Source: Bradyrhizobium sp. CB2312
GTDB taxonomy: Bacteria; Pseudomonadota; Alphaproteobacteria; Rhizobiales; Xanthobacteraceae
Reading direction: 5' to 3'
Length of the DNA: 64,000 nucleotides
NCBI RefSeq assembly: GCF_029714425.1
Contig: NZ_CP121668.1
Coordinates: 1,819,501-1,883,500, forward strand
The notes below the pieces were generated by a model, which did not search any database, was not told the DNA's origin, and saw only the letters and a list, made by a program, of their open reading frames with translations. This document shows, piece by piece, positions 15,679 through 47,618 of this stretch; position 1 is the stretch's first letter, and each line of letters begins with the position of its first letter. Made by a program: the position numbers and the translations under genes.

Positions 15679-15681
15679 ATA

Positions 15682-28359: not shown

Positions 28360-28396
28360 ATCACCTCTCGCCATGAAGTCGATAGACGACCATTAT
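28360..28396 (-). promoter_or_regulatory. OxyR-type four-half-site box (copy a)
   Basis: Read on the minus strand: ATAA-N7-CTAT-N7-ATGG-N7-TGAT, the exact 4-7-4-7-4-7-4 spacing of a full OxyR site. A conserved CATTCT follows 23 bases later (28331-28336 on the complement) as a candidate -10. It is upstream of the secreted-protein gene at 27820-28299. Confidence 0.65.
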
Positions 28397-28798
28397 TGGC
28401 GGACCGCTAGAGTCCAAGGGAGCCCAGCGCGATGGCGCCGCTAGCTGAGGAAATTTGTCGCGCGCATTGGCATTGGTCCCTGGTCGCGGTCGGGCTTCTG
28501 CTTCGCCCGATGTCATCGGCCTCCTTATATTCGTGCGAGTGGGGAACCGCGAAGTAAGGGTAGGTCGCCGCAAATGCTCTGCCGCACTGGCAATCGCGCT
28601 TCCGACCGCGGCGGGGACGGGCGGGCGCTTTTTGGCTAACGAGACGCCCACGGCACCATTGCTATTGCTGAGACTCGGAACCCGCGGCAAAGGATCGTCG
28701 CGTGAACACCCCTTCTTGGTCGCGAAGAGTTCTACCGGACCGAGGCGACTAGGTGCAGCTGGCGCCCGCCGCACGCCGCACGCTTCTGAGCTATTCCG

Positions 28799-28835
28799 AT
28801 AACACTCGGCTATCGACTTTATGGCGAGAGGTGAT
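28799..28835 (+). promoter_or_regulatory. OxyR-type four-half-site box (copy b)
   Basis: ATAA-N7-CTAT-N7-ATGG-N7-TGAT, identical to copy a at every half-site. CAATCT at 28859-28864 takes the place of CATTCT. It precedes the orphan histidine kinase, divergent from copy a. The 400 bases between the two boxes hold no gene. Confidence 0.65.
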
Positions 28836-28944
28836 TTTAGTTTCCGCCGTCGTTGGCCCAATCTAGATGCATCGTCGCCCGTCCCCGGCTGCGACTGGAG
28901 TTGCCGACGTTATCTCGAACGATCCGATGCCAGGAGATCCCGAA

Positions 28945-29976
28945 ATGCACATCGGCGAGACAATCCCCGGCGCCGTCGAGCGCCCGCCGCTGGAGGACGT
29001 GGTCGTGCTCGTGGACGGATGCGGTGTTGCGGTTGGAGTGGAGCGTGCGGTCAGAAGGATGAGCTGCGTGCACGATGATGGTGGCGGCCGCTCATTTAGA
29101 TGTGTGGAGATCCAAGTCGTCGGGTCCGACGGCGAGGTATCGGGGATTTTGCGCCATACCGATCCGCCGTGCGAGGCGCGAGGCGCCGTCGGGGGGACAA
29201 TGGCGGAGACGATAGCGGACGTGAGGCAGTTCGTTCACGACATTAATAATCTTCTCACCGTCATCGGGAGCGGTCTGCGGGAAATCGAGCGTCAGAGCGA
29301 TGCTGCATACCGGAGGGCCATCGTCGATAAAATGCAGGATGCGATCACACGAAGCGCGTCGCTTAGCCGGCAGCTCCTTGACGCAGCGAGGCCGCGCCCA
29401 AAGTCTAATGGTACAACAGGCAGTCAGCTCGCAGTGATAGCGGGGACGCTTGACGGGGTATTGCATCCAGACGTTTCCGTCCGCACGGAAATCGTCCCTG
29501 CGTTATGGACCTTCAATGCCGACGCGGAAGAGCTGTACTTCGCCTTGCTCAATCTCTGCCGAAACTCGGCCGATGCAATGCCAACCGGCGGCGTGATTAC
29601 TGTCGCGGCGCGGAATTTCGAGCCTTCCACCGACACTGCCGGAGAGTTTGTCGAGATTGTCGTCGCCGACCATGGAGAGGGCATGCCCGAGAATGTCCTT
29701 TCGCAGGCCTTCACCCCATACTTCACGACAAAGCTCAAAGGTAGCGGGACCGGACTCGGACTCCCACAGGTCCGGCACTTCGCTGAGAGACAAGGTGGCG
29801 CGGTCTGGATAGAGAGCGAGCCTGGTGCCGGAACGGTGGTGCGCCTCTTCCTGCCGCGCGTGCAGCCAACTGGGCTCTCCTGCAGCGTCGTCGAAACAAG
29901 GATTTTATACACACCGTCAACCGGTGGTGGCGTATTCCGAACCTTCAACACCGCGACGGCCGCGCCAAGGTCGTAG
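28945..29976 (+). CDS. Orphan histidine kinase
   Basis: 343 residues from ATG 28945 (AGGAG eight bases before). The in-frame ATG at 28867 has no site and would fall at or before the predicted transcript start. The variable N-terminus (~85 residues) has no recognised sensor. The kinase core has an H box with FVHDINNLLTVI, N box LLNLCRNSADAMP, G1 VADHGEGMP and G2 SGTGLGL. No membrane span is seen, so it is cytoplasmic. No response regulator is adjacent. Confidence 0.9.
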   Translation: MHIGETIPGAVERPPLEDVVVLVDGCGVAVGVERAVRRMSCVHDDGGGRSFRCVEIQVVGSDGEVSGILRHTDPPCEARGAVGGTMAETIADVRQFVHDINNLLTVIGSGLREIERQSDAAYRRAIVDKMQDAITRSASLSRQLLDAARPRPKSNGTTGSQLAVIAGTLDGVLHPDVSVRTEIVPALWTFNADAEELYFALLNLCRNSADAMPTGGVITVAARNFEPSTDTAGEFVEIVVADHGEGMPENVLSQAFTPYFTTKLKGSGTGLGLPQVRHFAERQGGAVWIESEPGAGTVVRLFLPRVQPTGLSCSVVETRILYTPSTGGGVFRTFNTATAAPRS

Positions 29977-30006
29977 CCAGGCGCGAACACTCGGGACCGC
30001 GCAGCG

Positions 30007-31872
30007 ATGAGGCTCATATTTCTGTCAGGCCGACTTGATCGACCGGTCGATCACGATACGGAACATGTGCTCGGCCCTCCCGACGCCGAGATCTCGCTGG
30101 TCGAGTACGGCAGCTACGCGTGTCCGCACTGCAGGGCTGCCAACGATCGCATCGCGCAGGCGCGCGATCAACTCGGCGACCGCATCTGCTATGTGTTCCG
30201 TCACAAGCCGCTTGCGAACAACAGTCTTTCATTCTGGGCTGCACAGATCGTTGAGCTCGCTCGGACGCCCGAAGCGTTCTGGTCCGCGCACATGAAGCTA
30301 ATGACGAGATCGGCGCAGCTCACGGAAGACGATCTCTTCGCGGTGGCCGCAGACCTCGGTGTGAACGCGGACCTCTCGCTTGGCGAGAGCGAAGCCGTAC
30401 GGCGGGCGAGGTCGAGAGTGGAGTCGGACATCGCAAGCGCGCGTGCGAGCGGAGTGAGATTCACGCCAAGTTTCTACATCAACCGTCGGCGCTACGACGG
30501 GCCGTGGGACGAGAGTTCCTTCGTTGATGCGATGCTTGGCACGCTCGGTCACCGCGTTCGTACGGCTGCCTTGGACTTTGCGAGCTGGGGCCCGTCAGCC
30601 GGCATTCTGCTCGTCCTCGCGGCCGTGGCGGCAATCATCTTGACGAACTCGCCCATCGGGCCGCACTTCGAGGCGCTCTGGCTCCGCGAGTTCGGCGTGA
30701 GCTTGGGCAACATAACCTTTCGGAAGCCCATCTTCGATTGGGTCAATGACGGGCTGTTAACAGTGTTCTTCGTGGTCGTTGGATTGGAAGTCAAGCGCGA
30801 GATGACGGTGGGCCATCTCGCAAGCCGTCGTTCGGCCGCGCTTCCGATCGTGGCCGCGCTCGGCGGCATAGTCGGACCGGCGCTTCTGTATGCGCTGATA
30901 ATCCCAGCGGGGCCGTGGTCGCACGGATGGGGTGTCCCGATGGCGACCGATACCGCGTTCGCGGTTGCGTTGATTGCGGTGATGGGCTCCCGGGTCCCTG
31001 TGGAGCTGCGTATCTTCCTCACTGCGGCCGCCATCGTTGACGACATCGGCGCGATCGTCGTCGTCGCTCTGTGTTACTCTGGTGAGATCCATCTGGCTTA
31101 CCTTGCTGCGGCCGCCACAGTTGTAGTTGCGCTAGTGCTGCTGAGCCGATCTGGAGTCTACTTTCTGTCGCCCTACATCCTGTTGGGGGTTGCGCTGTGG
31201 GCGTCCGTATACGCTGGCGGCCTTCAGCCTACATTGGCCGGGGTGGTACTTGCGTTGTTTATTCCGACGCGACCGCCCGCCAACTTAGAAGCCCTGCTGA
31301 CGCAGGCGAGCATCATCATCGCGTCCGAGGCTCGGCACGAGGGTGAAGTTCTTAGGAACGGCCCCTCTACTTCGGCTCTGCACGCGCTCGAGGCAATCTA
31401 CGAGAGACTTGAGTCGCCCGCCGATCGGTTGCTGCGACATGCCGGCGCGCGATCGAGCTACGCTATCCTCCCAATCTTCGCATTGGCGAATGCGGGAGTG
31501 ATGATCAACCCAGGCGTCTTCGTCGGCCATGGCCGGCTCATGGCCGCGATCGTCGTTGGTCTCGCTTTAGGAAAACCGCTCGGCGTCTTCCTCGCGGCCG
31601 CCGCGGCTGTGCGCACAGGCCTAGCCGTCAAGCCAGACGAGTACTCGTGGCGACAGTTGGGCGGAGCAGGAGCCTTCGCTGGGATTGGCTTCACGATGTC
31701 GCTCTTCATCGCCGGTCAGGCATTTCCAAACGCCACCGACTTCTCGGCCGCAAAAATTGCTGTGTTCGCCGCCTCGATTCTCTCTGCCGCCGTTGGGACT
31801 GTCGTCCTCTGGGGAGCTTCGCACCGGGAGCTTATCGGAGATGCGTCGCGGAGCCTCGGCATGAAATCATAA
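30007..31872 (+). CDS. nhaA: DsbA-like thioredoxin domain fused to Na+/H+ antiporter NhaA
   Basis: 621 residues. Residues 1 to ~175 are a DsbA-like domain with active site YACPHCRA (Cys39, Cys42) and FTPSFYIN carrying the cis-Pro. Residues ~190-610 are a full NhaA antiporter (DGLLTVFFVVVGLEVKRE, ATDTAFAVALI, and the essential Asp pair in AAIVDDIGAIVV near 345). No signal peptide precedes the DsbA-like part, so its side of the membrane is uncertain. Such fusions exist in some bacteria. Redox control of ion exchange is an inference. Confidence 0.93.
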   Translation: MRLIFLSGRLDRPVDHDTEHVLGPPDAEISLVEYGSYACPHCRAANDRIAQARDQLGDRICYVFRHKPLANNSLSFWAAQIVELARTPEAFWSAHMKLMTRSAQLTEDDLFAVAADLGVNADLSLGESEAVRRARSRVESDIASARASGVRFTPSFYINRRRYDGPWDESSFVDAMLGTLGHRVRTAALDFASWGPSAGILLVLAAVAAIILTNSPIGPHFEALWLREFGVSLGNITFRKPIFDWVNDGLLTVFFVVVGLEVKREMTVGHLASRRSAALPIVAALGGIVGPALLYALIIPAGPWSHGWGVPMATDTAFAVALIAVMGSRVPVELRIFLTAAAIVDDIGAIVVVALCYSGEIHLAYLAAAATVVVALVLLSRSGVYFLSPYILLGVALWASVYAGGLQPTLAGVVLALFIPTRPPANLEALLTQASIIIASEARHEGEVLRNGPSTSALHALEAIYERLESPADRLLRHAGARSSYAILPIFALANAGVMINPGVFVGHGRLMAAIVVGLALGKPLGVFLAAAAAVRTGLAVKPDEYSWRQLGGAGAFAGIGFTMSLFIAGQAFPNATDFSAAKIAVFAASILSAAVGTVVLWGASHRELIGDASRSLGMKS

Positions 31873-32059
31873 TAGCAAGCCGGACAATGGAAAGGAGATG
31901 GTTCTTTCCTGCCCATCAGTGGCACGAGGCTGTCCCCCAGATTCACAACCACGCGTGAAACCTGGGGTGCACTTAACCGAAATCTCCTGGCATCCCATCA
32001 TCAATGAAACCAGCAACGCTGAAGTATCTTGGCAAACCGTCGCGTTTGAAGGAGCCGAA

Positions 32060-32293
32060 ATGACGCACGTATATTTCCACTGTTCGAACACCAAGAAGGT
32101 TTTCGTCGATCGCCGCGGCGCAGTGGTGGAAGATATTGCTGATGCGAGGGATCATGCGAACCGTATCGTACAATCTCTCACTAGAGAGAGCAGCCTCGAG
32201 GATTGGCGTGACTGGATTTTGCATGTCAGTGATGATCAGGGCGATGAACTCTTCGTTGTGCCCTTCACGTTCGTGCTCGGCGAGCCGAATTAA
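32060..32293 (+). CDS. Small DUF6894-like protein
   Basis: 77 residues from ATG 32060, with aaggag upstream. The pattern VYFHCSNTKKVFVDRRGAVV then DARDHANRIV matches the small rhizobial family I know as DUF6894. Function unknown, cytoplasmic. It stands alone after nhaA. Confidence 0.75.
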   Translation: MTHVYFHCSNTKKVFVDRRGAVVEDIADARDHANRIVQSLTRESSLEDWRDWILHVSDDQGDELFVVPFTFVLGEPN

Positions 32294-32770
32294 GGTCCCC
32301 GTGTTCCGGGCGACCCTCGGACCAAGGCGCGTAAGTCCCACCTGAAATGCAAGCAGCTGGAACCTGACAAGGTTAACTTCAGCGTCAGCGCAGCCAGATC
32401 AAGATTTGATTTAACCTGCCGACACAAAATGAGGAGTTCTCGCGCGCGCTGGGCAACAAACGCGGTCGCCAGCTTTGAGGTTTAGGCCGCGTGCTCATAA
32501 ACTCGGCGACGTGATGCGACGAAAGCCACGAAGGCCTTGGCGTCAGCAATGCTGGCGACCACAAGCTGTTGCCACCGTGGCCAGACGCCGGGAATCGCGT
32601 TCAGTTGTTTGCTCGTCGCGCTTGATAGATGCCGAGCGATGGTGCTGCTGATAGATGCGGACATTATGGGCCAAGTACGATGTGCTTGCGCGAGCATCGT
32701 TGCAGCGATACGGATACGGCACTGATTTGATTTCGATTAGGATCCAGGTAGCTCGACCTCTGCCATCGAG
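32294..32770. other. Intergenic, no convincing gene
   Basis: A 71-codon minus-strand frame (32482-32697) has no family motif and no clear ribosome site. I would not call it a gene. Confidence 0.45.
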
Positions 32771-33823
32771 CTATTGCGACTTTATGTGACGCACCAAGGA
32801 TTGGACATGCTCGGGGCGTGTGGTCTTCAGAATCCCATGACCGAGATTGAAAATGAACGGTCCCCGGCCCAAGGCCGCCAGGATGCGGTCGGTTTCTGCA
32901 TACATCGCTGCGCCTCCCGCCGCCAGTAGTTGGTTGTCCAGGCTGCCCTGCACGCAGCACCCAAGGGCGCCCTGTATTCTGTCGGCAGCCCAAGCGAGCG
33001 GGACGGTGCTGTCCAGGCCTACACAATTGACCCCGGTCGCCTCGGCGTAGCCAACGTAAAGCAGACCGGCGCCGCGCGGAAAGGCAATGATCGGGGTGTC
33101 GGGATATTTGGCGCGAAGGGCGCTGACGATCGCGGCTACCGGCTGCACGCACCAGCGCTGGAAGAAAGGTTCAGGGAGGATACCCGCCGAGCTCTCAAAT
33201 AGCTGGATGGCTTCTGCGCCCGACTCGATCTGTCGTGCCAGGAACTGAGTGATGGCTTCGGTCAAAAGGTCGATCAGCGGCTGAAACTCCTCTGGGTCGC
33301 TCAACGCCCATCGCTTGATAGTGGCATGGTCGGTGGCACCTCCGCCGCGACCCTCAACCATGTAAGTAGCCACTGTCCAGGGCGCCCCCGCGTAGCCAAT
33401 CAAGGCCACGTTTGGAGGGAGGGCGACGGTGAGTCGTCGCACCGTCTCATAGATCGGCGCCAATTTCTGGTGCAACCAAGTAAGAGTAAGGCGCGCCACA
33501 TCCGCAGCCGAACGGATCGGGGGCGACAGAACCGGCCCATCGCCCTCCTTGTATTCGAGCACTTGGCCAAGGGCTGCGGCAATCTGCGGAAGGTCCGCGA
33601 ATAGAATGGCCGCATCGAATCCAAATCGCCGGATCGGCTGAAGCGTGACTTCTACCGCGTGGTCCGGCGAGTTGCACAGCTCCAGCATTCCGCCGGCTGC
33701 GGCCCGCGTTACAAGATACTCAGGCAGGTACCGGCCAGCTTGTCTCATAAGCCAGATTGGCGGTCGTTCCGTACGTTCGCCGGCAAGCGCACGCAGAAGC
33801 AACTTTCTTGGCTCGTAAACCAC
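32771..33823 (-). CDS. hemE: Uroporphyrinogen decarboxylase HemE (divergent copy)
   Basis: 350 residues, normal length, from a GTG. It converts uroporphyrinogen III to coproporphyrinogen III in the cytoplasm. The hallmark PPIWLMRQAGRYLPEY carries the substrate-binding Arg pair. Asp77 in AILFADLPQ corresponds to the catalytic Asp. GYAGAPWTVATYMVEG is the Tyr region, and GHGILKTTRPEHV the C-terminal His block. Some blocks differ from housekeeping HemE (FADLP for FSDIL, ESSAG for the usual WAG), so this looks like an accessory paralogue. hemC lies beyond the IS element on the same strand. Confidence 0.93.
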   Translation of the reverse strand: MVYEPRKLLLRALAGERTERPPIWLMRQAGRYLPEYLVTRAAAGGMLELCNSPDHAVEVTLQPIRRFGFDAAILFADLPQIAAALGQVLEYKEGDGPVLSPPIRSAADVARLTLTWLHQKLAPIYETVRRLTVALPPNVALIGYAGAPWTVATYMVEGRGGGATDHATIKRWALSDPEEFQPLIDLLTEAITQFLARQIESGAEAIQLFESSAGILPEPFFQRWCVQPVAAIVSALRAKYPDTPIIAFPRGAGLLYVGYAEATGVNCVGLDSTVPLAWAADRIQGALGCCVQGSLDNQLLAAGGAAMYAETDRILAALGRGPFIFNLGHGILKTTRPEHVQSLVRHIKSQ

Positions 33824-33969
33824 TATGGAAGCACTCCCTGTACAGCTTCAGAAGCGGAAATACCATTTGCCGCCATCAGGACCACACCGCAAAGCGCGCT
33901 TACATTGGTTGGCGCGGTCATAGCACACTGACAATCATCACGATCATGGACGAACGTCCGCTGTGGGTC

Positions 33970-35531: not shown

Positions 35532-35639
35532 GTCATTTCGACGGGTTCTGCAGGATTGTCGGCAGGATGACATCTACTTCTGCTTGTAAGCGCCGAACCG
35601 AGTTTGGGCGGCCCCTGTGATTCAAACTCGCCAACGAGG

Positions 35640-35876: not shown

Positions 35877-35968
35877 TGTAGTCGGCCAAGTTCCAGGCTC
35901 TGCACTACGTGCTAAAGTCGCATGCTGTATCCCAGATCCTGAGTCCATCATCATGCTAGGTATCGAAT

Positions 35969-36904
35969 TCAGATTGCCCTTTGCTCTTCCATCATACGAT
36001 GCACGGCCTTCAGTATCTCGCCTGCACCTTGCTGAAGAAGCTTGTGCCCGAGACGTCGGCCGATTGCCTCGGCCTGATCGGCCGGACCAACGCATTCATC
36101 AGCAATCTTCGATTGCCCATCTGGATGAGTCACCTGTCCTCGAAGCGTTAGTGTCCCGGCGACCCACGTGGCGGAAACGCCGATGGGTAGGCTGCATCCC
36201 GCATCGAGACTTCTCATCAGGGCGCGCTCTGCATCTACTTCAATGCGCGATTTCCGATCTTCTATCTTATGAAGCAATGCTATGAGTTCCGTATCCTCTT
36301 CGCGAGCTTCGGCCGCGAGAGCGCCTTGGCCGGGTGCATACGGAAAGACATTCGCGTCCAGAACCTGTGAGGCCTCATGTAACAGCCCTAGCCGGGACAG
36401 TCCTGCCGCTGCCAATAGAGTAGCGTCTATTCCGTCCCGGATCTTTGCCTTACGAAGCCTTGGAGAAACGTTCCCGCGAATGGGTCGAACATCGAGACCT
36501 CTGCATAGAGCGAGAAGTTGCGCTTTGCGGCGAATTGATCCGGTGCCGACGCGTAGCCCCGGTCGTAGCTGATCCAGTGTAACGCCACAGATGGCGTCAC
36601 GAGCATCCTCTCTCTTGGGAACAGCCGCTAATACCAAGCCTTGCCGCAATCTAGTCGGAAGATCCTTGAGAGAATGAACGACCAGGTCAACTTCCTTTCG
36701 CATAAGCGTGTCTTCTCCCTCCTTCGTGAATGCTCCGACGCCCCCAAACTGATGAAAGGACGACCTTCGATCTCTATCGCCAACCGAACTTGTGAAAATA
36801 ATCCTTACTTCAGCGGCCGGCTCGACGCCGCGAATAAGATTGGCGACGTGACTGGCTTGCCAGCGGGCCAGGTCACTTCGCCTGGTGCCGAGGCGAATTT
36901 CCAT
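35969..36904 (-). CDS. hemC: Hydroxymethylbilane synthase (porphobilinogen deaminase)
   Basis: 311 residues from ATG 36904 with AAGAGG seven bases before. It joins four porphobilinogens into hydroxymethylbilane. GGVGAFTKEGED and VVHSLKDLPT (catalytic Asp81) are conserved. LDAGCSLPIG carries Cys237, which binds the dipyrromethane cofactor. The start overlaps the preceding small gene by about 30 bases, so it is translated in an operon. It differs at several usual positions (GGVG for GGKG), which fits an accessory copy. Confidence 0.95.
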   Translation of the reverse strand: MEIRLGTRRSDLARWQASHVANLIRGVEPAAEVRIIFTSSVGDRDRRSSFHQFGGVGAFTKEGEDTLMRKEVDLVVHSLKDLPTRLRQGLVLAAVPKREDARDAICGVTLDQLRPGLRVGTGSIRRKAQLLALCRGLDVRPIRGNVSPRLRKAKIRDGIDATLLAAAGLSRLGLLHEASQVLDANVFPYAPGQGALAAEAREEDTELIALLHKIEDRKSRIEVDAERALMRSLDAGCSLPIGVSATWVAGTLTLRGQVTHPDGQSKIADECVGPADQAEAIGRRLGHKLLQQGAGEILKAVHRMMEEQRAI

Positions 36905-37160
36905 GATCAAACCTCTTACTTGTTGGGTAGCTCGTCGCAGGACGCTGACCGGTAGTTCCTGGACGATGTGGCGATGAGTTTTCGGCCTTCATTCGTTGAT
37001 ATTCCGAAGCGGCCTCTTCGGCTGTCGCGAAGTTCTTGCTATAAATGAAGGTTTCGCAACCAGTGCTGATGCGGGCGTAGTAGGGCTTTCGCCGCCTAGC
37101 ATAGTCCGAGCGCTTCCTGACGCCGGGGAAGCCGTGTTTGTTGACTATGATGCGTGGCAT
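36873..37160 (-). CDS. Small AP2-like basic protein
   Basis: 95 residues. GFPGVRKRSDYARRRKPYYARI followed by FIYSKNFATAEEAASEYQRMK resembles the AP2 DNA-binding fold (GVR...Y.ARI...F.TAEEAA.AY), here alone without an integrase. The tail is Pro/Ser-rich. It overlaps hemC, so coupling is likely. It may bind DNA; no target is visible. Confidence 0.7.
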   Translation of the reverse strand: MPRIIVNKHGFPGVRKRSDYARRRKPYYARISTGCETFIYSKNFATAEEAASEYQRMKAENSSPHRPGTTGQRPATSYPTSKRFDHGNSPRHQAK

Positions 37161-37912: not shown

Positions 37913-37921
37913 CGTCACCTC

Positions 37922-39250
37922 CTATTTTTTGCTGCGGAGCTTCGTGACCTCGGCAGGCGTCACCAACGCCCCGTGGTTACCCCAGGACGTGCGCTCGTGA
38001 TTGATGATATCGGCGATCTGCTGATCAGAGAGCCGGTCAGCGAACGGTGGCATCTCCACTTCGTACTTCTGGCCGTCGATTACCTTGCCGCTGAGGCCGC
38101 GCAGCATGGTGACGATGTGTTCGGCAGGATCAGTGGCATTAACGACCGGATCGCCCGCAAGTGGCGGAAATGTGCCAGGAACGCCTTTGCCCTCCGCACC
38201 GTGACAGACGCCGCAGTTGTCGGCGAAGAGCTTCGATCCTTCCGCAGCATCGAACGTCGATGCCGGGGCCGCTACCGGTGAGGCCTCTTTCGGCGTCGCT
38301 GCTTGCTTTTGCAATGGTTCATTGGCACGGGCCGCGACGACATCAGCCGCACTGATTAAGGCACCACGATTGCCCCACGAGGATCGTTCGTGATCGATGA
38401 TGTCAGCAATCTGCTGATCAGACAGTTGATCGGCAAACCCCGGCATTTGCGCTTCATAGCTCTGACCGTTGATTACGCGCCCGCTAAGTCCATGCAGCAC
38501 GGCGCCAATGTGTGCAGTGGGATTGGCGTCGTTCACCACCGCATCTCCAGCAAGCGGCGGAAACGTTCCCGGCACACCCATGCCTTCCGCGCCATGGCAG
38601 GATGCGCAGTTGTCGGCGAACAATGCAGCGCCCTTGGTGGCTTCAAACCCCAGGGATCCAGTCGAAGAGCTCTTAGTCGCGGCGCGGGTCTGTGCCGGAG
38701 CGAGTGGGGGCTGCTTCAGTGATAACAGATAGGCAACTAGCGCCTTGCCGTCGTCGCTGGGGATGACCATATCGCCTGGCGCGAATTGGGGCGGCAATGG
38801 CACCGCTTTCTCTCCTGGTGGCAGTCTGCCCACAGTCCTAAACAGCCAGGGGAAGGCTGGCATGATCGATTGTGGTACAACTGCACGCGGTTGATAGAGA
38901 TGGATGTACTGCCATATGCTACTCGATTGCCGCGCGCCGATATTGCTCAAGTCTGGACCAGTGCGCTCCGAACCTAGCAATTCCGTAGTCTGGTAGGCGT
39001 AATCGCCCGGCGCAGACGGGCGGCCAAACGGCTTATCTCCGGAGAGCGGGCGTACTTGCTGGGTATGGCAATAGAAGCAGCCTTCGGAGACATAGACGTC
39101 TCGACCCCGCGCCTCAATCGGGGTTAGTGGCTTAAGGCCTGGCGTCGGCGGCACCTTCGACAGCCAGATCCCCGGCAGCACGCCCATAAGAACCGCCAAA
39201 CCAGTGTAGATCAGCGTTGAGCCGCCAGAAATGGCAAATGTCCTGTTCAT
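37922..39250 (-). CDS. CcoO-like subunit fused to two cytochrome c domains
   Basis: 442 residues. Residues 1 to ~180 are CcoO-like: one membrane anchor, then GCFYCHTQQVRP (Cys58, Cys61, His62) and GPDLSNIGARQSS. Two cytochrome c domains follow, with CASCH (215-219) and CGVCH (346-350). They are near copies of each other (FPPLAGD, LSDQQIADII, HER-S/T-SWGN shared), each with a Met ligand in QMPGFA or EMPPFA. In standard cbb3 the extra hemes sit on a separate CcoP, which is absent here. The ATG overlaps the end of the CcoN-like gene, so the fusion probably replaces CcoO plus CcoP. Confidence 0.92.
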   Translation of the reverse strand: MNRTFAISGGSTLIYTGLAVLMGVLPGIWLSKVPPTPGLKPLTPIEARGRDVYVSEGCFYCHTQQVRPLSGDKPFGRPSAPGDYAYQTTELLGSERTGPDLSNIGARQSSSIWQYIHLYQPRAVVPQSIMPAFPWLFRTVGRLPPGEKAVPLPPQFAPGDMVIPSDDGKALVAYLLSLKQPPLAPAQTRAATKSSSTGSLGFEATKGAALFADNCASCHGAEGMGVPGTFPPLAGDAVVNDANPTAHIGAVLHGLSGRVINGQSYEAQMPGFADQLSDQQIADIIDHERSSWGNRGALISAADVVAARANEPLQKQAATPKEASPVAAPASTFDAAEGSKLFADNCGVCHGAEGKGVPGTFPPLAGDPVVNATDPAEHIVTMLRGLSGKVIDGQKYEVEMPPFADRLSDQQIADIINHERTSWGNHGALVTPAEVTKLRSKK

Positions 39251-40647
39251 GCTGGCACCGTCTTGGCTGCGGCAAGCTCGGCGCGGGACCTACCGTAGGT
39301 CATCGTCCAGACGTTGAAAGCGAAGACTAGATGGCCGGCAAACATCAGGGAGCCGCCGACGGAGCGCCACATCCAGTATGGCGCGGCATCTTCGATCGAC
39401 TGGATGAAGGTGAGTCCTCTGAACCAGTCGAGCCCCTGAATGGTGCCGGCGGCCGACAGCGCCGCAACATAGATGACTACACCTACGGCAGACAGCCAAA
39501 AATGAATGCCCATCGCTAGATTATAGGGATACTTCCCGGTTGCGCGCGGCAACAGTCCATAGATGCCGCCCCAGATCGCGAAGGTGACGAAGCCATACAT
39601 CGTGAGGTGCGAGTGCCCTACCGTGTAATTCGTCAGATGCCAAAGCTGCTGCAGCGACCGAAACGCCTCGAATGTGCCTTGCGCTGATCCCAGTAAATAG
39701 CCGTAGACGCCGACGAGGATGAAAACCGCGGGCGAGCGATATACCCATTCGTGAGTCCCCCGGAAGGTGAGAAGGAAGTTTGCTGAGCCGCTCAACACTG
39801 GAACGAGCATGGCCACACTGAAGACGATGGCCGTAGTCTGCAGCCACCATGGTAGTGGACTGAATTCAAAATGATGAGCCCCGATGATTGGATAAAAGAT
39901 GAGATTGGTCCAGAATGCAAAGACGCCGAGAGAATATGAATAGATCGGCCGATTCAGGAGTTTCGGCAGCGCATAGTACGACACACCAAGCGATAGAGGC
40001 GTGAACCATAGTCCGACGGCGTTATGCATGAAGAATGCCTGTACCGCGACCTGACCCAGGCCGTACTGATACCAGGGCAACATCGACACCACGACCATAA
40101 CAATCGTCCACAGCGTGCCCCCGATAGTATACCAATTGGAAATATAGATATGCTCACCATCCCGGCGCTCGACAGTGGCGATCATATTCAGGGCCGCGGT
40201 GATCAAGCCAAGTCCAAGGATTACGCGAATCCACCACAGCCATTCGCGATACTCCTGGCCGTAGGTGAACCCGAGATCGAGCGTGACTGTGCCCAGTACC
40301 GCGGCAAGATTAAGGAGCGCCAGACTGATCCATGCGAGGCGCTCGCTGTAGAGCCTTACGCCAGAACTGCGAGCAGCGACGAACAGCGCAAGCCCAATCA
40401 GCGCCTGGCTCGCCCAGGCATAAAATGTTCCGCTGGTGTGTATCGCGCGCAAGCGACCGAACGACAGCGCCGGCGTGGTCGCGAAATCGGGGTAAGCGAA
40501 TTTGAAGCTGACAAGGAGCCCCACGGCCGTGGCGAATACAAGCCAGATTGTGGCCGACGCCACGTACGCCGCGAGCACCCGCGCCAAAACGCGGTCATCC
40601 GGAGGGAGCGCGCGAAGTGGAATTGCTGCAGGGCCACCTGACATCAT
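39247..40647 (-). CDS. CcoN-like catalytic subunit of a cbb3-type oxidase
   Basis: 466 residues, about 12 membrane spans. Heme and copper ligands are all visible: His70 and His347 (low-spin heme b), His208, His258 and His259 (CuB), His345 (heme b3). Tyr252 lies six residues before the His pair, the position of the cross-linked Tyr of cbb3 oxidases; this argues for O2 reduction rather than NO reduction. YGQEYREWLWW and LLNRPIYSYSLGVFAFW are CcoN-like. Start ATG 40647 has GAGGAG upstream and overlaps the previous stop. Confidence 0.93.
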   Translation of the reverse strand: MMSGGPAAIPLRALPPDDRVLARVLAAYVASATIWLVFATAVGLLVSFKFAYPDFATTPALSFGRLRAIHTSGTFYAWASQALIGLALFVAARSSGVRLYSERLAWISLALLNLAAVLGTVTLDLGFTYGQEYREWLWWIRVILGLGLITAALNMIATVERRDGEHIYISNWYTIGGTLWTIVMVVVSMLPWYQYGLGQVAVQAFFMHNAVGLWFTPLSLGVSYYALPKLLNRPIYSYSLGVFAFWTNLIFYPIIGAHHFEFSPLPWWLQTTAIVFSVAMLVPVLSGSANFLLTFRGTHEWVYRSPAVFILVGVYGYLLGSAQGTFEAFRSLQQLWHLTNYTVGHSHLTMYGFVTFAIWGGIYGLLPRATGKYPYNLAMGIHFWLSAVGVVIYVAALSAAGTIQGLDWFRGLTFIQSIEDAAPYWMWRSVGGSLMFAGHLVFAFNVWTMTYGRSRAELAAAKTVPA

Positions 40648-40907
40648 CCGTCTCCTCGACGAAATTGTTCAGCGTTGCCCTGAGGGGCACCAAAAGCGTG
40701 ACGCCAGCGGCGCTGCAACCGGGCGGCTTGATCGAGAAAATCCGGCGCGATCAAGTTGTACACTTCTTTGTGGCTGGGCTGGCCGAAGGCATGGAGCGTC
40801 TCGCCAATCTTGATCGCCGTTGCGTACCGATCGCCATCTTTCCGTGGCCTACCGAAATAGGCGACCTTACCAGCTACTGAGGTCGGTGTTACGCCGTTGC
40901 TTTGCAT
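40644..40907 (-). CDS. Small protein opening the oxidase operon
   Basis: 87 residues from ATG 40907 with GGGAGG six bases before. No membrane span; a basic C-terminal half (AARLQRRWRHAFG). I do not recognise it. Its TGA overlaps the ATG of the CcoN-like gene, so the two are co-translated. The OxyR-type box (copy c) lies about 105 bases upstream. Confidence 0.75.
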   Translation of the reverse strand: MQSNGVTPTSVAGKVAYFGRPRKDGDRYATAIKIGETLHAFGQPSHKEVYNLIAPDFLDQAARLQRRWRHAFGAPQGNAEQFRRGDG

Positions 40908-41012
40908 ATCGAGCCTCCCGGCTTCTCGATCCGACCGCGTGTTGGTGACGCACTTTGAAGGCTGCGGTACGACGATGCGTTGGAGAATGAGCTTGCAAGA
41001 CCGCCAAAGGAA

Positions 41013-41049
41013 ATCACCTTTCGACATAGAGTCGATAGACGACCGTTAT
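41013..41049 (-). promoter_or_regulatory. OxyR-type four-half-site box (copy c)
   Basis: Minus strand: ATAA-N7-CTAT-N7-ATGT-N7-TGAT, with the conserved CATTCT on the complement of 40984-40989. This predicts a leader of about 70 bases for the cbb3-like oxidase operon. Confidence 0.65.
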
Positions 41050-41255
41050 TGGCGACCGACGGCGTCGTGGCGAGGAATGCCACCCGTCGCGTCTCCAGAG
41101 ATCCAGGTTGCCGTATGCCGATCGCCTTGTTGGCGACACGGTGAGCGAGCGGCGTCGTGGAACGAGCCAAGTCGAGTTGTCCGAAGGCGCGAGCGCGGGT
41201 CTCTTGGGCCTGCAGGCATTCCACGCTATGGCGTCGCCACGCCGCGGAGGCGGCA

Positions 41256-41292
41256 ATAACGATTGCCTATCGAATCTATGGCTAAAGGTGAG
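41256..41292 (+). promoter_or_regulatory. OxyR-type four-half-site box (copy d)
   Basis: ATAA-N7-CTAT-N7-ATGG-N7-TGAG with CATTCT at 41316-41321. It points at the cytochrome b561 gene and is divergent from copy c, 200 bp away. Confidence 0.6.
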
Positions 41293-41491
41293 TTCACGCG
41301 CCGCAGTTGCGGGGTCATTCTTCAACCAGCGTGTTCAAATGCTAAATGCCGCCAACGGGACGCGACCAAGCGGAAGGCAACGAGTTGTCCGCCGGCATTA
41401 TTGAACCAGAGGTAATCCGCGCTCACATCTCTCGCGACGCGCCGCAACAGTTCATCAAATGCCGCGGCGCCCTTAAAGTTAGGTAATCGCT

Positions 41492-42025
41492 TTGCGCAGC
41501 ACTTCTTCTCGCTACGGCGCCGGCGCCCGATTGTTCCATTGGTTGACGGTCATGCTGGTTCTTGTTGCTTATGTGCTGAGCAGTGGCGATGGCTACTCGC
41601 TCTATTCCGCCTCCGCGGACGGGCTCCGAAGGATACACGAGGCGCTCGGGGTTCTTGTCTTCGGTGTCGTCGCACTGCGGTTGATATGGCGCCTGATCGG
41701 CGGCGCGCCAGTGAAGCAGCCGATGCCGCGATGGATGACTCTAACCGCGCAGCTCGTCCATTTCGCTCTTTATGCGTTGCTCATTGCGATTCCTACTACG
41801 GCCGTGCTTGGTACCTGGCTTGAGGGGATCCCCGTCACCCTTCCGGGATTCGACATCGCTCCCCAGATCACGAAGGCGCGTAGTCTTGGTCATCTGATCA
41901 TGGGAATACATACCACGCTGGGTTACACCATTCTCTGGGTTGCCTGCGTGCATACAGCCGCGGCTCTCTTCCACTACTTTTATCTGCGCGATGACGTGCT
42001 TCAGTCTATGGTTCCCGGCGCATGA
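41492..42025 (+). CDS. Cytochrome b561
   Basis: 177 residues with four membrane spans. His ligands are visible in RLFHWLTVMLV, LRRIHEALGVLVFG and the C-terminal region (GIHTTLGYTILWVACVHTAA). This di-heme b protein shuttles electrons at the inner membrane; the bacterial type can oxidise superoxide and reduce quinone. Start is TTG 41492, with aggt just upstream. It is divergent from the oxidase operon and shares its promoter element. Confidence 0.92.
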   Translation: MRSTSSRYGAGARLFHWLTVMLVLVAYVLSSGDGYSLYSASADGLRRIHEALGVLVFGVVALRLIWRLIGGAPVKQPMPRWMTLTAQLVHFALYALLIAIPTTAVLGTWLEGIPVTLPGFDIAPQITKARSLGHLIMGIHTTLGYTILWVACVHTAAALFHYFYLRDDVLQSMVPGA

Positions 42026-42523
42026 ATGATTAGTCCGAGCACCGCGGAGAGCTGTGTTCTCTCTGAACTTTGCGATGTATGCTTGCAAACTCGCTTAATC
42101 CAATGCGCCGTCGCTCCAGCCGACGGGACCTCCTTGAGACGGTGCACTGACACAAATACGGTAGATGTTGTCAAAGTCCGTGCAGTCTTGCAGGATGCCG
42201 AAGCCTCCTCAGACCGCCGTTGTTAGCTGGCGCACTTTGAGTGACCGAATTGCTGGCTATCAACAAGTATAGCAATATTGAGGTTCGTTGGTTCTGAGTC
42301 GCGCAAGTAGTTTAAGCAATCGACGCAAATGAAGATCTGGGTTGGGGTTATCAATATTACCGCAAATAGCCTCGACGGCGTGGGCAGTTGGCTTTCCGTG
42401 AATGTGCAGGCGGTGTGGCCAAGATCGTTAATGCGACGCAGGCTGGGTGAACCGAAGTGAACTCTTGCACTCGTCTATTTGTGGCTCCTTGAGAACCGTC
42501 GTTGTCTCACTGCGCCTAAAGCG
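42026..42523. other. Intergenic, no gene seen
   Basis: Between the cytochrome b561 gene and the cupin gene, which converge. Short frames only. Confidence 0.5.
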
Positions 42524-42934
42524 TCAGTTGCTAGGCGTTGTGAGCCGGCTGTCATTGGTGTCAAGGACGAACACAGCGAGCAGCTTCGCCGGCTCGGTCT
42601 TGCTTGCGTTGCGGCTGATCGAGTGGAGCGCACCCGGAGATTCAGACCAGCTCTCGCCGGCCCGATAGATGCGCGTCCCGCTATCATTTACTTTCGACTC
42701 GATCGCGCCTGAGATCACATAGGCATAAATAAAAGCCGATTTCGCATGGGTGTGGGGCGGAGAGGCCGCACCCGGCGCGTAATCGACTTCCACAGCAATC
42801 AGCGACTTGCCAGAAATATTGGGAATAGTCGCCTCGAAGTTCTTCGTGACGGTCTGCGCCCGGCTATCATGGGCGCAAATAAGGCCGGGCAATGAGAAGA
42901 CTAGAGCGGCGCTGATGATGGTGCGGATCTTCAT
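42524..42934 (-). CDS. Secreted cupin-domain protein
   Basis: 136 residues with a signal peptide (about 1-26) and a single cupin barrel: SPPHTHAKSAFIYAYVISG gives the His-x-His and Glu-less first motif, GESWSESPGALHSISRN the second. It likely binds a metal in the periplasm. A copy with the middle deleted lies at 61360-61506. An imperfect inverted repeat (acgtgccgcacgc / gcgtgccacgt, 43119-43155) lies 185 bp upstream. Confidence 0.88.
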   Translation of the reverse strand: MKIRTIISAALVFSLPGLICAHDSRAQTVTKNFEATIPNISGKSLIAVEVDYAPGAASPPHTHAKSAFIYAYVISGAIESKVNDSGTRIYRAGESWSESPGALHSISRNASKTEPAKLLAVFVLDTNDSRLTTPSN

Positions 42935-43300
42935 GAGCTTAATCCTTGCTTTGCGCGCCTCGGGGTGGCTCGTTTGGCTCGAGCGATGCTAAGCTGGCGT
43001 CATCTCACGGGGAAATGTCTGACTGTTATGGTTTCCATTCCAACGCGACAATCGTGTTTATGAGGTCGAAAGTGCGCGGAGAGGCGGCTCCTTTCTGATC
43101 GTTCGGCGGGAGGGACCCACGTGCCGCACGCACCTGTTGATTAGGCGTGCCACGTCAACGCCACGCACGACATCATTGACGTGCCGCGATGTCAGTGCGG
43201 AATGATAGGCGGCCGTTTCTTGCAGGCTGGGACGGTGACCGATTGCCGAGGCGGTGAGTTTCTGCAGACGCGGACACTCGCATCTGGCTCGGAGTGGGCA

Positions 43301-43337
43301 ATAACTATCGTTTATTGACTTTATGGCGACAAGCGAT
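43301..43337 (+). promoter_or_regulatory. OxyR-type four-half-site box (copy e)
   Basis: ATAA-N7-TTAT-N7-ATGG-N7-CGAT with CATTCT at 43362-43367, one base further away than in the other copies. It lies upstream of the peroxiredoxin gene, the target class expected for OxyR. Confidence 0.65.
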
Positions 43338-43580
43338 TTTGCGTCCCCGGCGTTCTGGGATCATTCTCCAAGCCAACATCGTAGAATTTGATTCTGAGAC
43401 CGTCATGCAATGTCGGCCTGAGAAGTTAGAAGGCTCGATATGCCAGACAACCGCCTCTCCAAATCGGCGCGCCGGAGATTGGATCAGCGAGTCGACGTGG
43501 TCGTTGGATGCGCGGGCCGTTCTTGACGAAGCCGCGGGCGGTTTGAGCGCCATGCGGTTCAAACAGTGAGACCGATAGTG

Positions 43581-44057
43581 ATGCTACAGAACGGCGACAG
43601 TTTTCCCTCTCTTACCTTTGCTCGCGTCGGGGGCGGCAGAATCAACTTGCCTGCCGATCTAGCAGGTTGGTTCGGCGTGGTTATATTCCACCGTGGTTCC
43701 TGGTGCCCGTACTGCAACGCTCAGCTGGCCGCTTTCGCGCGAGCGGCGGACAAATTCGCCGATGAAGGCATCAAGGTCGTCTCGGTATCGGTAGACGACC
43801 GGGAAAAGTCGGAGATGCTCGTCGAAAAGCACGAAATTGGTTTCCCTGTCGCGTACGGTGCTGACGCGCGAGCGGTTTCCGCGGTGACCGGCGCCTTCGT
43901 CAATGACGATCCCGTCTGCCTCCAGGCCACCGGCTTCGTCCTGAACCCCGAAGGTCGGGTGGTGACGGCCGTCTATTCGACCCGCGCGATCGGCCGTCTG
44001 ATGCCTGACGATGTGCTCGGCTTTGTCCGCCACCTCAAATCTTTAGCAAAAAAATGA
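43581..44057 (+). CDS. Peroxiredoxin (AhpC/TSA type)
   Basis: 158 residues. It reduces peroxides in the cytoplasm. The peroxidatic motif region is FHRGSWCPYCNAQLAAF (Cys42 and Cys45), so the Cys pair is close, as in BCP/PrxQ-like enzymes with CxxC. The frame opens at GTG 43566; ATG 43581 is preferred because relatives begin with a short ML-x-x-GDSFP. It follows promoter box e. Confidence 0.9.
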   Translation: MLQNGDSFPSLTFARVGGGRINLPADLAGWFGVVIFHRGSWCPYCNAQLAAFARAADKFADEGIKVVSVSVDDREKSEMLVEKHEIGFPVAYGADARAVSAVTGAFVNDDPVCLQATGFVLNPEGRVVTAVYSTRAIGRLMPDDVLGFVRHLKSLAKK

Positions 44058-44216
44058 AAGCCAGCGGAGGATTAGCTGGGAGATAGATAAATGCGCAACT
44101 GTCTGGATGGTGCTCGGCTCGGGGCATGATCTGGGGTCCCACCACGCGGTCTACCGCGGCTCACCGCCTAGATAACCGCAACACAACTTCGACGAGGTGC
44201 GGCATTCCGCGTTTGA

Positions 44217-45534
44217 CTATTTGAGTTGGCGAACGCTGCTGGTAGCAGCTCCCATCAGAGCAAACGTCATTCCTGCAACCAAACAAAGGACCGCGCTATG
44301 ATCTCCGCCTACGCCGAAGATAAGCGAAATCAAGGCGGAGCCCAGCGACCATCCGACGTAGCGAGCCGCAGCATTCATCCCACTTGCGGCCCCGCTACGT
44401 CCGATTGGTCCAGCCGTCATCATCGCAGTGTTGTTCGGGGTCTGGAAAAGACCGAAACCGATACCACAAAGGGCTAATCGCCACGCCATATCCGACTTTG
44501 CCGGATTTGTTGGCAAGAAGACCATCAGAAGCAAGCCGGCCGCCAATAACGTCAAACCGATGCTGCAAATCAATGAGGTTGGGAAGCGGTTTGTCAAGCG
44601 ACCGGCGATCGGGGCCGTGACGGCAGTCATAAACGGCCAAGGCGTCAAGAGCAAACCTGTTTCTACAGCAGAAAGATGCATCCGCGTCTCAAATAGGAAA
44701 GGTAAAGAGACGTAGGCCAGGATTTGTGCGGCATATGAGCAGACAGATGTCCACACCGATAAGCTAAATTGGCAGCATTGGCATGGGATGCTTCTGTTGT
44801 TGTCGAATGAAGAGACCAAAACAGAAAAGACCTGCGACGATCTCTCCGATCCCAATGGGCGCGTCGCTGCTACCCAGCGTACCGACGCCGATGACAAAAA
44901 GCCCGAATCCAAGGGTGTTGAGACCGCTCCCGGTCAGAACGAGGGCGCGAGGGAATCGAACGTCTGGTGGTGCGGCGTTGATAAAGAGCGGTACCGCGAG
45001 GCCGAATGGCAAATTCACCAGAAACAACCACGGCCATTTTGCAACGGCAAGTATTGCAGCGGCGATGGTGGGTCCCAATGCACCTGGTATCGCAACCGCC
45101 AACGCAACCAGTGCAAGGCCTTTACTGACCATGCCGCGCGAATAGACCACGCGTACGAGGGCAACGCCGGCGACAGAAAGCCCAGCCGCTCCAGCTCCCT
45201 GAATCAAGCGGGCACCCACCAGCACAGGCAATGTTGGAGCGAACGCGCAGGCCAAAGACGCGAGAACAAAAATGGTCAGACTGGCGGCATAGATGCGTTT
45301 TAGGCCGAGCGATTCAACCATACTTGAGACGGGCAGCAAGCAGACTGTTGCCGAAAGCTGATACGCATTTACGACCCAAACGGTCGCCGCGTCATTGCCT
45401 GCAAAAGAACGTGAGATATTCGGCAGGGCGATATTCACGATTGCGCTTCCGAGGGAGCTTAGACCAAGTCCAAGCAAGATGCAGAACATTGTCCTGCATC
45501 GTTTTGATGGCGCTAAACATTCCGCTCCGCCCAT
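44217..45534 (-). pseudogene. MFS multidrug exporter (DHA2 type), broken by a small deletion
   Basis: Two frames make one 14-span transporter. The first (45534-44764) runs from ALPNISRSFAGNDAATVWVV to QKHPMPMLPI and a stop. The second (from about 44770) continues with FSLSVWTSVCSYAAQILAYV. Between them about 7-8 codons seem lost, with a frameshift, at the usual loop-to-helix junction. Both halves are otherwise clean, so the break is recent or a sequencing error. Confidence 0.88.
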
Positions 45535-45925
45535 CAGTAAGCAATCCCCTGCAAGAGCTTTGAAGAGTCGACTTTGCGCGGACTCTCAGCAGCGGGCTCC
45601 TTGGATCGAAACTTGATGTCGATCAGTCGTTTCGGCCAAAATTGCGAACTTTCAACACTACGATCTGTCGCCAAATGACCTACATGACTCGGCAAAGGTT
45701 CTTTGCAGGGGGGTTCTCCGAGGTGAGACCGTCGGATTGCATGCGCATCAAGATCGCAAGTGATCTTTGCTGCTTCGAGAAGGCTGCAGGTCTACACCTC
45801 ATCAGCGGTGGCCGGATCGTAGTCATCGTTTGGCGGCGCCACACTAAGAATGGTTCGCTTGGAAGCATCGACAGGAGAGCAAATCAATGCGTTGTCCAAA
45901 AGACGTATGCCAGAGCTGACGAAAC
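45535..45925. other. Intergenic, no gene seen
   Basis: Between the MFS gene start and the 3' end of the membrane cytochrome gene; short frames only. Confidence 0.45.
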
Positions 45926-46963
45926 TCACGAGGCGAATGCACCGATCCTGACTCCAGACATTCCCGCGATGATTGCTGACGCTACGACCGCGCTTATAGC
46001 GAGGCAGGTACCCCAAAGACGACCGGCAACACGTTGATCAACACCGTGTGCGATCAGCACCAGCCTTAATCCTGAAGCGAGATGGCTCAGGACAAAGAAG
46101 ACGCCGAGCGCGTAGTGAGGCACTAGACGGATGTTCCAAGCGTCATGAATGAGGCCGGTCGGAGCTCCGATTGCGAAATTCCAATCCGTGGGTATGCCGA
46201 GAAAGCTTCGAGCGTAGACGAAAACTGAATTCATGTGGCCGAGAATAAAGACTGAAAGGTAGACTCCCGAAGCTACCTGATAGGTCCTCTGGAAGTTATG
46301 CGCCGAAGCGCTCCAGCGCCACGCCAGATGGATGCCGGTGCCGATCTGGAAAAGCATCGTTGCCACCAACAACGGTTCACCTACGTTAGAGCGATAAACT
46401 ATGCGTCCGATCTTCATTACTGCGGCGTGCGCGTCAGGACCTATCAAGCCGAACAGATGATTGGCGAGATGAAACACTACATATAGGCTGAGGACCAGGG
46501 CCGTTACTCCGTGGACACTCCGCCAACCTCCGACCACAGGCTCAGCTGATTTAACTGGATCTCGGGCAGGCTGCGACCATTTCGCGATTGCGAGCCAGAT
46601 CGCGCACCAAATGACCTCATCGGGAATAGGGCTCTTGATTAGGGCTTGCACAACGCCGAGAAACACATAGAGCGTCGGCGACACTACGCTCGCATAGGCG
46701 AGGCGTCTTGAAGCGGGACCGGACGTTGGTCGACAAGCCAGGGCGATCCCGAGAAACGGCACCACGAACGCAACAACCAAAACAAAGGTCGCGCTGGCGA
46801 CTGCGAAAGGTGGCAGGCTCACCACTTCCGTACCGACGATAGCATGGAAAGCATCGAGCAGAAATGGATAACAAATCGCCGCCGCCGCCGGTGCAAGAGC
46901 GAGATAGCTGTATCGCTTCTCGAGATGCGTCCTGCGATTTTGCTCGCCAACACTTGCGTCCAT
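45926..46963 (-). CDS. Membrane cytochrome b-like protein (fumarate reductase/SDH-type helices)
   Basis: 345 residues from the second of two adjacent ATGs (46963; 46966 is the alternative), with AGGG upstream. About eight hydrophobic helices. His residues lie where heme b ligands are expected: VHGVTALVLSLYVVFHLANH, GTGIHLAWRW, FILGHMNSVF, VPHYALGVFFVLSHLASG. This resembles succinate dehydrogenase/fumarate reductase membrane anchors. No catalytic subunits are adjacent. Probably an electron-transfer protein; the partner is unknown. Confidence 0.75.
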   Translation of the reverse strand: MDASVGEQNRRTHLEKRYSYLALAPAAAAICYPFLLDAFHAIVGTEVVSLPPFAVASATFVLVVAFVVPFLGIALACRPTSGPASRRLAYASVVSPTLYVFLGVVQALIKSPIPDEVIWCAIWLAIAKWSQPARDPVKSAEPVVGGWRSVHGVTALVLSLYVVFHLANHLFGLIGPDAHAAVMKIGRIVYRSNVGEPLLVATMLFQIGTGIHLAWRWSASAHNFQRTYQVASGVYLSVFILGHMNSVFVYARSFLGIPTDWNFAIGAPTGLIHDAWNIRLVPHYALGVFFVLSHLASGLRLVLIAHGVDQRVAGRLWGTCLAISAVVASAIIAGMSGVRIGAFAS

Positions 46964-46966
46964 CAT

Positions 46967-47618
46967 CAACCCTACAGAGTCACGGCCGAGAAACCGAGTA
47001 CGAGGCGACTTCCGAGGCAGGCAGGTAGTGCAAAGGTTCTGCAGAAGGCAAGTAATGCCCAGATAGAACGGCGCAGCTATCACGCAAGACACCAAACCCG
47101 CTAGCCGGTCGAAATGTATTTGAGTTATTCATGGGCATCATGAATGGCTGAGTTCACAGTTCTCAATGCGTGTCGCTCGCGCAGATTGCGGATGAGCGTC
47201 TCTCTGCGCTTGCGGCCTAAGTAGCGTTTACCTTGTGCGGTCATTACGGCGTTCATTGCGGATTCGCCGACTCAGCCTGGCTAAGAGGTCTCTACTGAAA
47301 CAATACGCCGGGCTAAATGTGCGATATGGTCGTGCATTCCGACTACAAAATCATGCCACTCGGAAAGCACCAATAACAATCGTTTATCAAGTCCATGGCG
47401 AATTGCAATTTCCCTTCGCCGCGCTGCAAGGTCACTCTCTCGTACTGCAACTTTCAGTGCTGAACCGACACGCGGGACACGTTGCTATTGGAGACTCGAC
47501 ATGCAGCGCAGCGGCGCAATTGAGGCTGTCGCTTCTAATGGCGGTGCCGTCAATCGAGTTATCTGCTTCCAAAATATTGGCGAGTTTCCTGCAGTATTTG
47601 CCTTTGGATCGATCAGAA
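46967..47618. other. Divergent spacer upstream of the RND operon
   Basis: 0.65 kb without a gene. It holds promoter box f (47373-47409). The frame that continues upstream of the MFP gene has no ribosome site. Confidence 0.5.
47373..47409 (+). promoter_or_regulatory. OxyR-type four-half-site box (copy f)
   Basis: ATAA-N7-TTAT-N7-ATGG-N7-CAAT with CACTCT at 47433-47438. It is the most divergent of the six and lies 210 bp upstream of the RND adaptor start. Confidence 0.55.

Follow-up and report, generated by a model that had tools for sequence, protein, structure and literature searches.

OxyR, IlvY, and CynR have been described as one group of regulators in which activation involves two dimers bound at sites IR1 and IR2 beside the −35 box, and IR1 and IR2 of the E. 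coli oxyR-oxyS region are centered at −66 and −44, 22 bp apart (PMC5002191). The nod boxes of the NodD system are described as 47 bp long, with ATC-N9-GAT (PMC5596368). In Pseudomonas, the MexT-MexS-MexEF-OprN system is described as combining a LysR activator, a MexE-kind resistance-nodulation-division (RND) pump, an adjoining dehydrogenase, and a redox link through a single regulator cysteine (PMC11432991, PMC6018408), and LsrB is described for the Rhizobiales at large as a further LysR-type regulator, next to OxyR, of the response to oxidative stress (PMC11975290). Here we analyze a 64,000-nucleotide stretch of DNA from Bradyrhizobium sp. CB2312 (the window; positions 1,819,501–1,883,500 of a one-contig 9.78-Mb genome) that holds six copies of a promoter-like element and the gene of a LysR-type protein, LysR-B; further copies and the gene of its sister, LysR-A, lie outside the window on the same chromosomal island. 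We put at roughly 0.8 the probability, judged from sequence, that these form a transferable, island-confined regulon of redox-detoxification, efflux, and respiratory genes, in which each copy of the element would be a LysR-activated promoter switched by LysR-A/B. It looks to be a stress regulon complete in itself and separate from the usual peroxide response under OxyR. We recognized no description of the element or of the LysR pair in the open-licence PubMed Central literature, as judged by titles and the starts of abstracts.

The six copies in the window lie where the first-pass annotation had placed them, and each can be seen directly to read ATAA-N7-YTAT-N7-ATGK-N7-four bases on the strand given in Table 1. 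The other features that it had noted were also found: a CAnTCT block follows the end of the 37-bp site after 23 bases in five copies and after 24 in the copy at 43301, two pairs of copies are divergent (28360/28799 and 41013/41256), and each copy faces a start codon (97–321 bases away as we place the starts, counting from the site's first base), with an AhpC/TSA-type peroxiredoxin among the targets. Two of these starts carry qualifications: that of cytochrome b561 (41492) is a TTG and uncertain, and that of the histidine kinase was placed at 28945 in preference to the ATG at 28867, which directly follows the CAnTCT block. Four further full sites lie just to the left of the window, at genome positions 1791581 (+), 1805048 (−), 1811168 (−; the match is also given as 1811143), and 1816315 (−). 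All ten full copies are similar over ~70 bases, from two bases before ATAA through the CAnTCT block. Over the 63 sites, from many genomes, used for a profile of the element, conservation is strongest in two AT-N11-AT dyads 22 bp apart, in TATCGA-N-T between them, and in TTT behind the second dyad. This arrangement (T-N11-A dyads upstream of −35) is present in nine of the ten full sites, the copy at 41256 ending in GAG; one dyad begins with AC instead of AT at 1791581 and 1811143. After the second dyad comes a TTCNCT-like block, then 17 bases and CAnTCT; we read the two blocks as putative weak −35 and −10 hexamers. If transcription is assumed to start ~7 bases behind the −10 block, the dyads would be centered near −66 and −44.

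The element is confined to one stretch of the chromosome. A strict 26-base pattern matched eight times in the 9.78 Mb, always inside the same 62 kb, and its backwards-read form matched nowhere. With up to three mismatches allowed, a tighter pattern gave 17 matches, ten in this region with 0–2 mismatches (the sites gained being 1811143 and 1791581) and seven scattered with three, as compared with four for the backwards control. A 72-position profile (R1), built from 63 of 69 non-redundant sites (out of 154; six were left out by hand) and applied to 150 of 2326 first-look candidates in the genome, found 11 elements at E < 1e-4, all between 1,791,579 and 1,873,994 (82 kb); the next match elsewhere had E = 0.96. 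The binomial probability of 11 out of 11 falling in this span is 1.5e-23, for a span defined by the matches themselves. The genome-wide scan that the first-pass annotation had proposed thus revealed no element outside the island among the candidates scored.

The candidate regulators, LysR-A and LysR-B, are 56% identical, with nearly alike DNA-binding regions. LysR-A carries both Pfam domains, HTH_1 and LysR_substrate, and LysR-B matches 51 NCBIfam families, with many LysR models among the 25 listed. Of 195 Bradyrhizobium genomes, 31 have the element (allowing one mismatch) and 30 have LysR-A/B (E < 1e-70), the two being found together in 29 (Fisher p = 4e-31, uncorrected for linkage or relatedness); single element and LysR matches are quoted from among the matches listed. 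More than one copy of the element is present in 26 of the 31 element-bearing genomes. When types were assigned from the identities of the LysR matches, four genomes had only an A-type protein, with 7, 1, 6, and 1 elements, and 14 had only a B-type protein, 13 of them with elements. Since elements occur in A-only and in B-only genomes, either LysR appears compatible with the sites.

Outside the genus, LysR-B (E ≤ 1e-70) was found in 3 of 347 genomes of the order. A slightly looser element pattern matched nine of the same 347, comprising those three, with several copies each, and six with one single-mismatch match (backwards control, two genomes). G248, from a different family, has three elements before its RND, DUF3788/baeRF12, and molybdopterin-oxidoreductase genes, all at most ~5 kb from its LysR gene. 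Among named relatives, the best 80 matches yielded 79 loci, in some cases several from the same genome, with LysR proteins either at least 52% (38 loci) or 36–41% (41 loci) identical to LysR-B. A 40-column matrix derived from this genome's ten sites detected the element in 24 of the 38 closer loci and one of the 41 more distant ones; the profile (E < 1e-3), many of whose training sites come from these loci, detected it in 29 and six, respectively. Element-positive loci include those of Mesorhizobium hawassense, Rhizobium calliandrae, Rhizobium sp. P32RR-XVIII, and Devosia nitrariae. The six profile-positive loci of the more distant group are all from Mesorhizobium, where a related core precedes a short-chain dehydrogenase gene and, in L176, also a DUF2282 - MbnB/TglH/ChrH pair. 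In L172, L173, L176, and L182, whose LysR proteins are 36–37% identical to LysR-B, the related core lies 108–170 bp before the LysR gene itself. L166, L168, L178, and L181 are further Mesorhizobium loci with a related core and a LysR of 36–37% identity. A pattern for this core, composed after its matches had been seen, matched 16 times in 10 of 44 distinct loci and never in five Markov-shuffled sets. In a LysR tree (from which L123, with a stop, was left out), one fork (100/99) joins Devosia nitrariae, two Rhizobium, and two Bradyrhizobium proteins, and M. hawassense sits among the B-type LysRs of Bradyrhizobium, which together suggest transfer between genera.

Across this genome and the relatives scanned, 154 distinct sites score at least 16. 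Type I sites, which from the second dyad onward read ATGGCGAGAGGTGATTTC, precede genes for GMC oxidoreductase, histidine kinase, RND adaptor, peroxiredoxin, RidA-like protein, and b561, as well as DHA2 transporter, NhaA-thioredoxin, baeRF12, and small secreted protein genes. Type II sites (ATGGCGTGACGTCATTTCCCATTCG) lie mostly before genes for cupin, antibiotic-biosynthesis-monooxygenase-type (ABM), and molybdopterin oxidoreductase proteins, and type III sites (GATAYC...CTATCGAATGCATGTCCAAAGGGAATTTCTAATTT) before cytochrome P460 and cytochrome c genes, the downstream gene being in each case the longest nearby frame and some assignments possibly wrong frames. In 17 pairs of orthologous promoters, the box is 88–100% conserved and the stretch 50–150 bases upstream 42–99%; the kinase, secreted-protein, and GMC promoters show this difference plainly, others only weakly. 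In many type I copies, ~45 further upstream bases are alike (GGCATTCCTCGCTACGGCATCACG and on), including genome positions 1791544–1791567 and copies in other genomes, a hint at copied promoter cassettes. Considered as an independent repeat, this upstream stretch was rejected: alone it has one match in the genome (at most three mismatches), at the 1791581 element. A tentative extension of our reading, to which we give less than even odds, is a portable regulon that grows by promoter copying: a LysR pair would travel with a standard cassette that has been duplicated before new genes on each island, and in different bacteria the same OxyR-related, one-cysteine sensors would control differing sets of oxidant- or electrophile-defense genes inside one transferable stretch, apart from the response of the cell's OxyR.

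Several points weigh against control by LysR-A/B. The −35 and −10 blocks match the consensus hexamers poorly, and the flanks of several orthologous promoters show almost the same conservation as the box. Genomes G134 and G145 carry a single element apiece and lack LysR-A/B, and G192 has LysR-B with a type III variant as its only element; some LysR matches, such as those in G013 and G123, are interrupted by stops within the alignment. Nine of the 38 closer loci, including that of a Devosia metagenome-assembled genome (L134) and both Caulobacterales loci (L138 and L156), have no element in the sequence examined, even by the profile. Since island genes travel together, co-occurrence with the element is expected of other island genes too, and the AraC gene of the island has matches (E ≤ 1e-70) in 32 of the 195 genomes, and 27 of these belong to the 31 that carry the element. 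The single element of G134 (G134:C1:3046937) stands before a cupin gene and that of G145 (G145:C1:2681485) before a kinase-like gene; both could be remnants or later recruits.

It is conceivable that another regulator of the island, above all this AraC-type protein, whose gene lies near the type III site, reads the element and that the LysR genes are passengers. However, the AraC gene is present without the element in five genomes and the element without the AraC gene in four, as compared with one and two for the LysRs; most of the AraC matches are only 40–47% identical, and so do not represent one orthologous gene; and no AraC match was found in the sequence examined around G248 (L212) or Devosia nitrariae (L125), both of which have elements. 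The AT-N11-AT dyads are also of the LysR form, and in Mesorhizobium LysR genes are among those that the related core precedes. We consider control by the AraC-type protein improbable.

On the proposal of the first-pass annotation, the elements would be bound by the cell's OxyR and mark out a peroxide regulon. The 4-7-4-7-4-7-4 spacing on which it relied is indeed that of OxyR sites, with 15-bp dyads in pairs, spaced by 22 bp, beside the −35 block; a peroxiredoxin is among the redox targets; and among solved relatives, OxyR proteins score best against LysR-A/B. But paired sites are common to OxyR, IlvY, and CynR, so that the spacing marks a LysR-type promoter and not OxyR in particular. The best OxyR match of this genome (63274–64131; 250.5 bits, the next having 111.3) lies ~1.7 Mb away, has a C-X8-C pair, and is divergent from a catalase-peroxidase (katG-like) gene, read up to the end of the stretch. 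The best element score at this oxyR-katG locus is −9.7, as compared with 52.9–65.8 for the ten sites; the elements foreseen at katG are thus missing there, and although ahpC had no look-up of its own, the scan showed no element away from the island. In the effector domains of LysR-A/B, one cysteine aligns with the first redox cysteine of OxyR and none with the second (the LysRs of L134 and L138 lack the first as well). Against the NCBIfam OxyR model, with a cut-off of 329 bits, LysR-A scores 95.7 and LysR-B 88.3, and the genome's own OxyR also falls below. Moreover, 164 of the 195 Bradyrhizobium genomes have no element within one mismatch, while OxyR is not an island gene in this genome. Because the oxyR-katG locus is free of elements, LysR-A/B lack the second cysteine, and the elements are confined to the island, we rejected OxyR, which seems very improbable as the regulator. 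The broader proposal of a redox regulon is plausible, and mostly redox-related genes do lie behind a repeated operator-plus-promoter. Also very improbable is that the copies are a mobile or duplicated repeat, alike through recent copying and not through binding, as the transposases on the island and the shared ~45 upstream bases might suggest, since types I, II, and III diverge outside the dyads but retain them, the copies precede and face the start codons of unrelated genes, the box is better conserved than the upstream stretch in the orthologue pairs, and that upstream stretch matches only at an element.

The genes that elements precede here or elsewhere encode an RND pump (followed by a quinone-reductase-like dehydrogenase), peroxiredoxin, the NhaA-thioredoxin fusion, GMC oxidoreductase, cupin, ABM protein, cytochrome P460, cbb3-like oxidase, b561, kinase, and a molybdopterin oxidoreductase with weak likeness to MsrP (36 bits; cut-off 207). 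This set fits a defense against oxidants, electrophiles, or reactive nitrogen, no single target being decisive, and our guess is that the inducer is most likely an oxidizing or electrophilic compound. No element was found directly before the nitroreductase, glutathione S-transferase, hemC-/hemE-like, ccm, or globin genes of the island and its flank. One of the ten full sites, at 1805048, is not followed by any clear intact gene. Three elements precede frames for small secreted-type proteins whose beginnings are alike (genome 1816315 (−) and 1805048 (−), and window 28299–27820 (−)), the first two frames being short. Behind the 1791581 element (genome 1791677–1794501), a cupin coding sequence is split over two frames and followed by an IS21-type transposase pair. 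Features of the window are collected in Table 1, together with LysR-A. The island also carries a hemE-like gene (32771–33823, −) and a hemC-like gene (35969–36910, −); nearby are ccm genes (13217–18172), a globin gene (4738–5145, −), and a cytochrome P460 gene (22839–23513). A short open reading frame with a partial LysR_substrate domain (57597–57995, −) adjoins LysR-B, and a ClpX-like AAA protein with a C4 zinc finger is encoded near the regulators (58913–60220, +).

Table 1. Copies of the element, genes behind them, and candidate regulators (window coordinates unless marked as genome)
Feature	Position	Strand	Remarks
Element copy, type I	28360–28396	−	−10-like CATTCT at 28331–28336; before small secreted protein gene, possibly also caspase-domain gene behind
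Element copy, type I	28799–28835	+	−10-like CAATCT at 28859–28864; before histidine kinase and NhaA-thioredoxin genes; divergent from 28360
Element copy, type I	41013–41049	−	−10-like CATTCT at 40984–40989; before RidA-like open reading frame and cbb3-like oxidase genes
Element copy, type I	41256–41292	+	−10-like CATTCT at 41316–41321; before cytochrome b561; divergent from 41013
Element copy, type I	43301–43337	+	−10-like CATTCT at 43362–43367, one base further than in the others; before peroxiredoxin
Element copy, type I	47373–47409	+	−10-like CACTCT at 47433–47438; before RND efflux genes
Weak type III variant of element	54439–54494	−	Profile E = 6.1e-5
Small secreted-type protein, 159 amino acids	27820–28299	−	Pfam: no match
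Caspase-domain (Peptidase_C14) protein	26851–27714	−	Behind element-preceded small secreted protein gene
Histidine kinase-like protein	28945–29976	+	HATPase_c the only domain above cut-off; start chosen by hand
Thioredoxin/DsbA-like domain fused in front of NhaA-type Na+/H+ antiporter	30007–31872	+	
Short open reading frame, 87 amino acids	40644–40907	−	Related to RidA-type (Ribonuc_L-PSP) protein of other islands
CcoN-like (COX1) subunit, short	39247–40647	−	236 bits; ccoN model cut-off 583
CcoO/FixO-like protein fused with cytochrome c domains	37922–39250	−	Below curated cut-off
Cytochrome b561 (Ni_hydr_CYTB)	41492–42025	+	
AhpC/TSA-type peroxiredoxin	43581–44057	+	Start chosen by hand
RND adaptor subunit	47694–48884	+	Top model MexE, 372.9 bits; cut-off 714; start chosen by hand
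RND permease	48881–52054	+	
Zinc-type dehydrogenase	52076–53047	+	Weak quinone oxidoreductase likeness, 124 bits; cut-off 296.8
AraC-type regulator with cupin domain	55029–56063	+	Second regulator co-occurring with element
LysR-B, candidate regulator, 311 amino acids	56504–57439	−	
LysR-A, sister of LysR-B, 369 amino acids	genome 1817072–1818181	−	Outside the window

How does this locus compare with the other described systems? The nearest working parallel is MexT with MexEF-OprN and MexS, which likewise joins a LysR-type regulator with a single cysteine to a pump of the MexE kind and a neighboring dehydrogenase. Here, however, the pump is one of many targets and its adaptor falls below the cut-off of the MexE model, and MexT is absent among the 60 best solved relatives listed for LysR-A/B; the likeness is one of description. 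The NodD system is similar in that several near-identical LysR-type boxes lie on one island with its own LysR regulators. It differs in the sequence of its box, and no nod genes follow the element in the stretches scanned; a nod-box pattern (at most three mismatches) matches four places in this genome, all at 8.39–8.75 Mb and none on the island, and we therefore set the nod box aside. These matches also read AT-N11-AT-N7-AT, a spacing that the search pattern itself imposes. Although LsrB resembles LysR-A/B as an additional LysR-type regulator beside OxyR, its described range contrasts with that of LysR-B in the order survey, and distribution is all that sets the two apart. The genistein-induced efflux locus BjG30, described as lying outside the symbiosis island of B. 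japonicum (PMC4070704), looked similar but was rejected, as its authors suspect a TetR regulator; this comparison, too, is by description. An RNA element was likewise considered and rejected, the only Rfam match at the gathering threshold in the window being suhB/mmgR (12527–12602, −; 47.8 bits).

How might the element work? The two 15-bp AT-N11-AT dyads, 22 bp apart, would hold two LysR dimers, with the second dyad abutting the weak −35-like block and the weak −10-like CAnTCT lying 17 bp further on. LysR-A and LysR-B would act as the regulators, and either seems to be enough. An oxidizing or electrophilic signal, the most likely kind, may lead the LysR tetramer to contact RNA polymerase and so switch on the detoxification, efflux, and respiratory genes. 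Judging by where it occurs, the regulon has probably moved among Bradyrhizobium species and into Mesorhizobium, Rhizobium, and Devosia.

If this is correct, two LysR proteins gain a defined regulon and a candidate operator at the level of single bases, and the 4-7-4-7-4-7-4 spacing is by itself no mark of OxyR. With ten or more near-identical promoters and their own putative regulators on one island, the system would be a good case in which to ask how gene sets that can be transferred carry their control with them, retain it, and extend it, as happens with the nod regulon in symbiosis.

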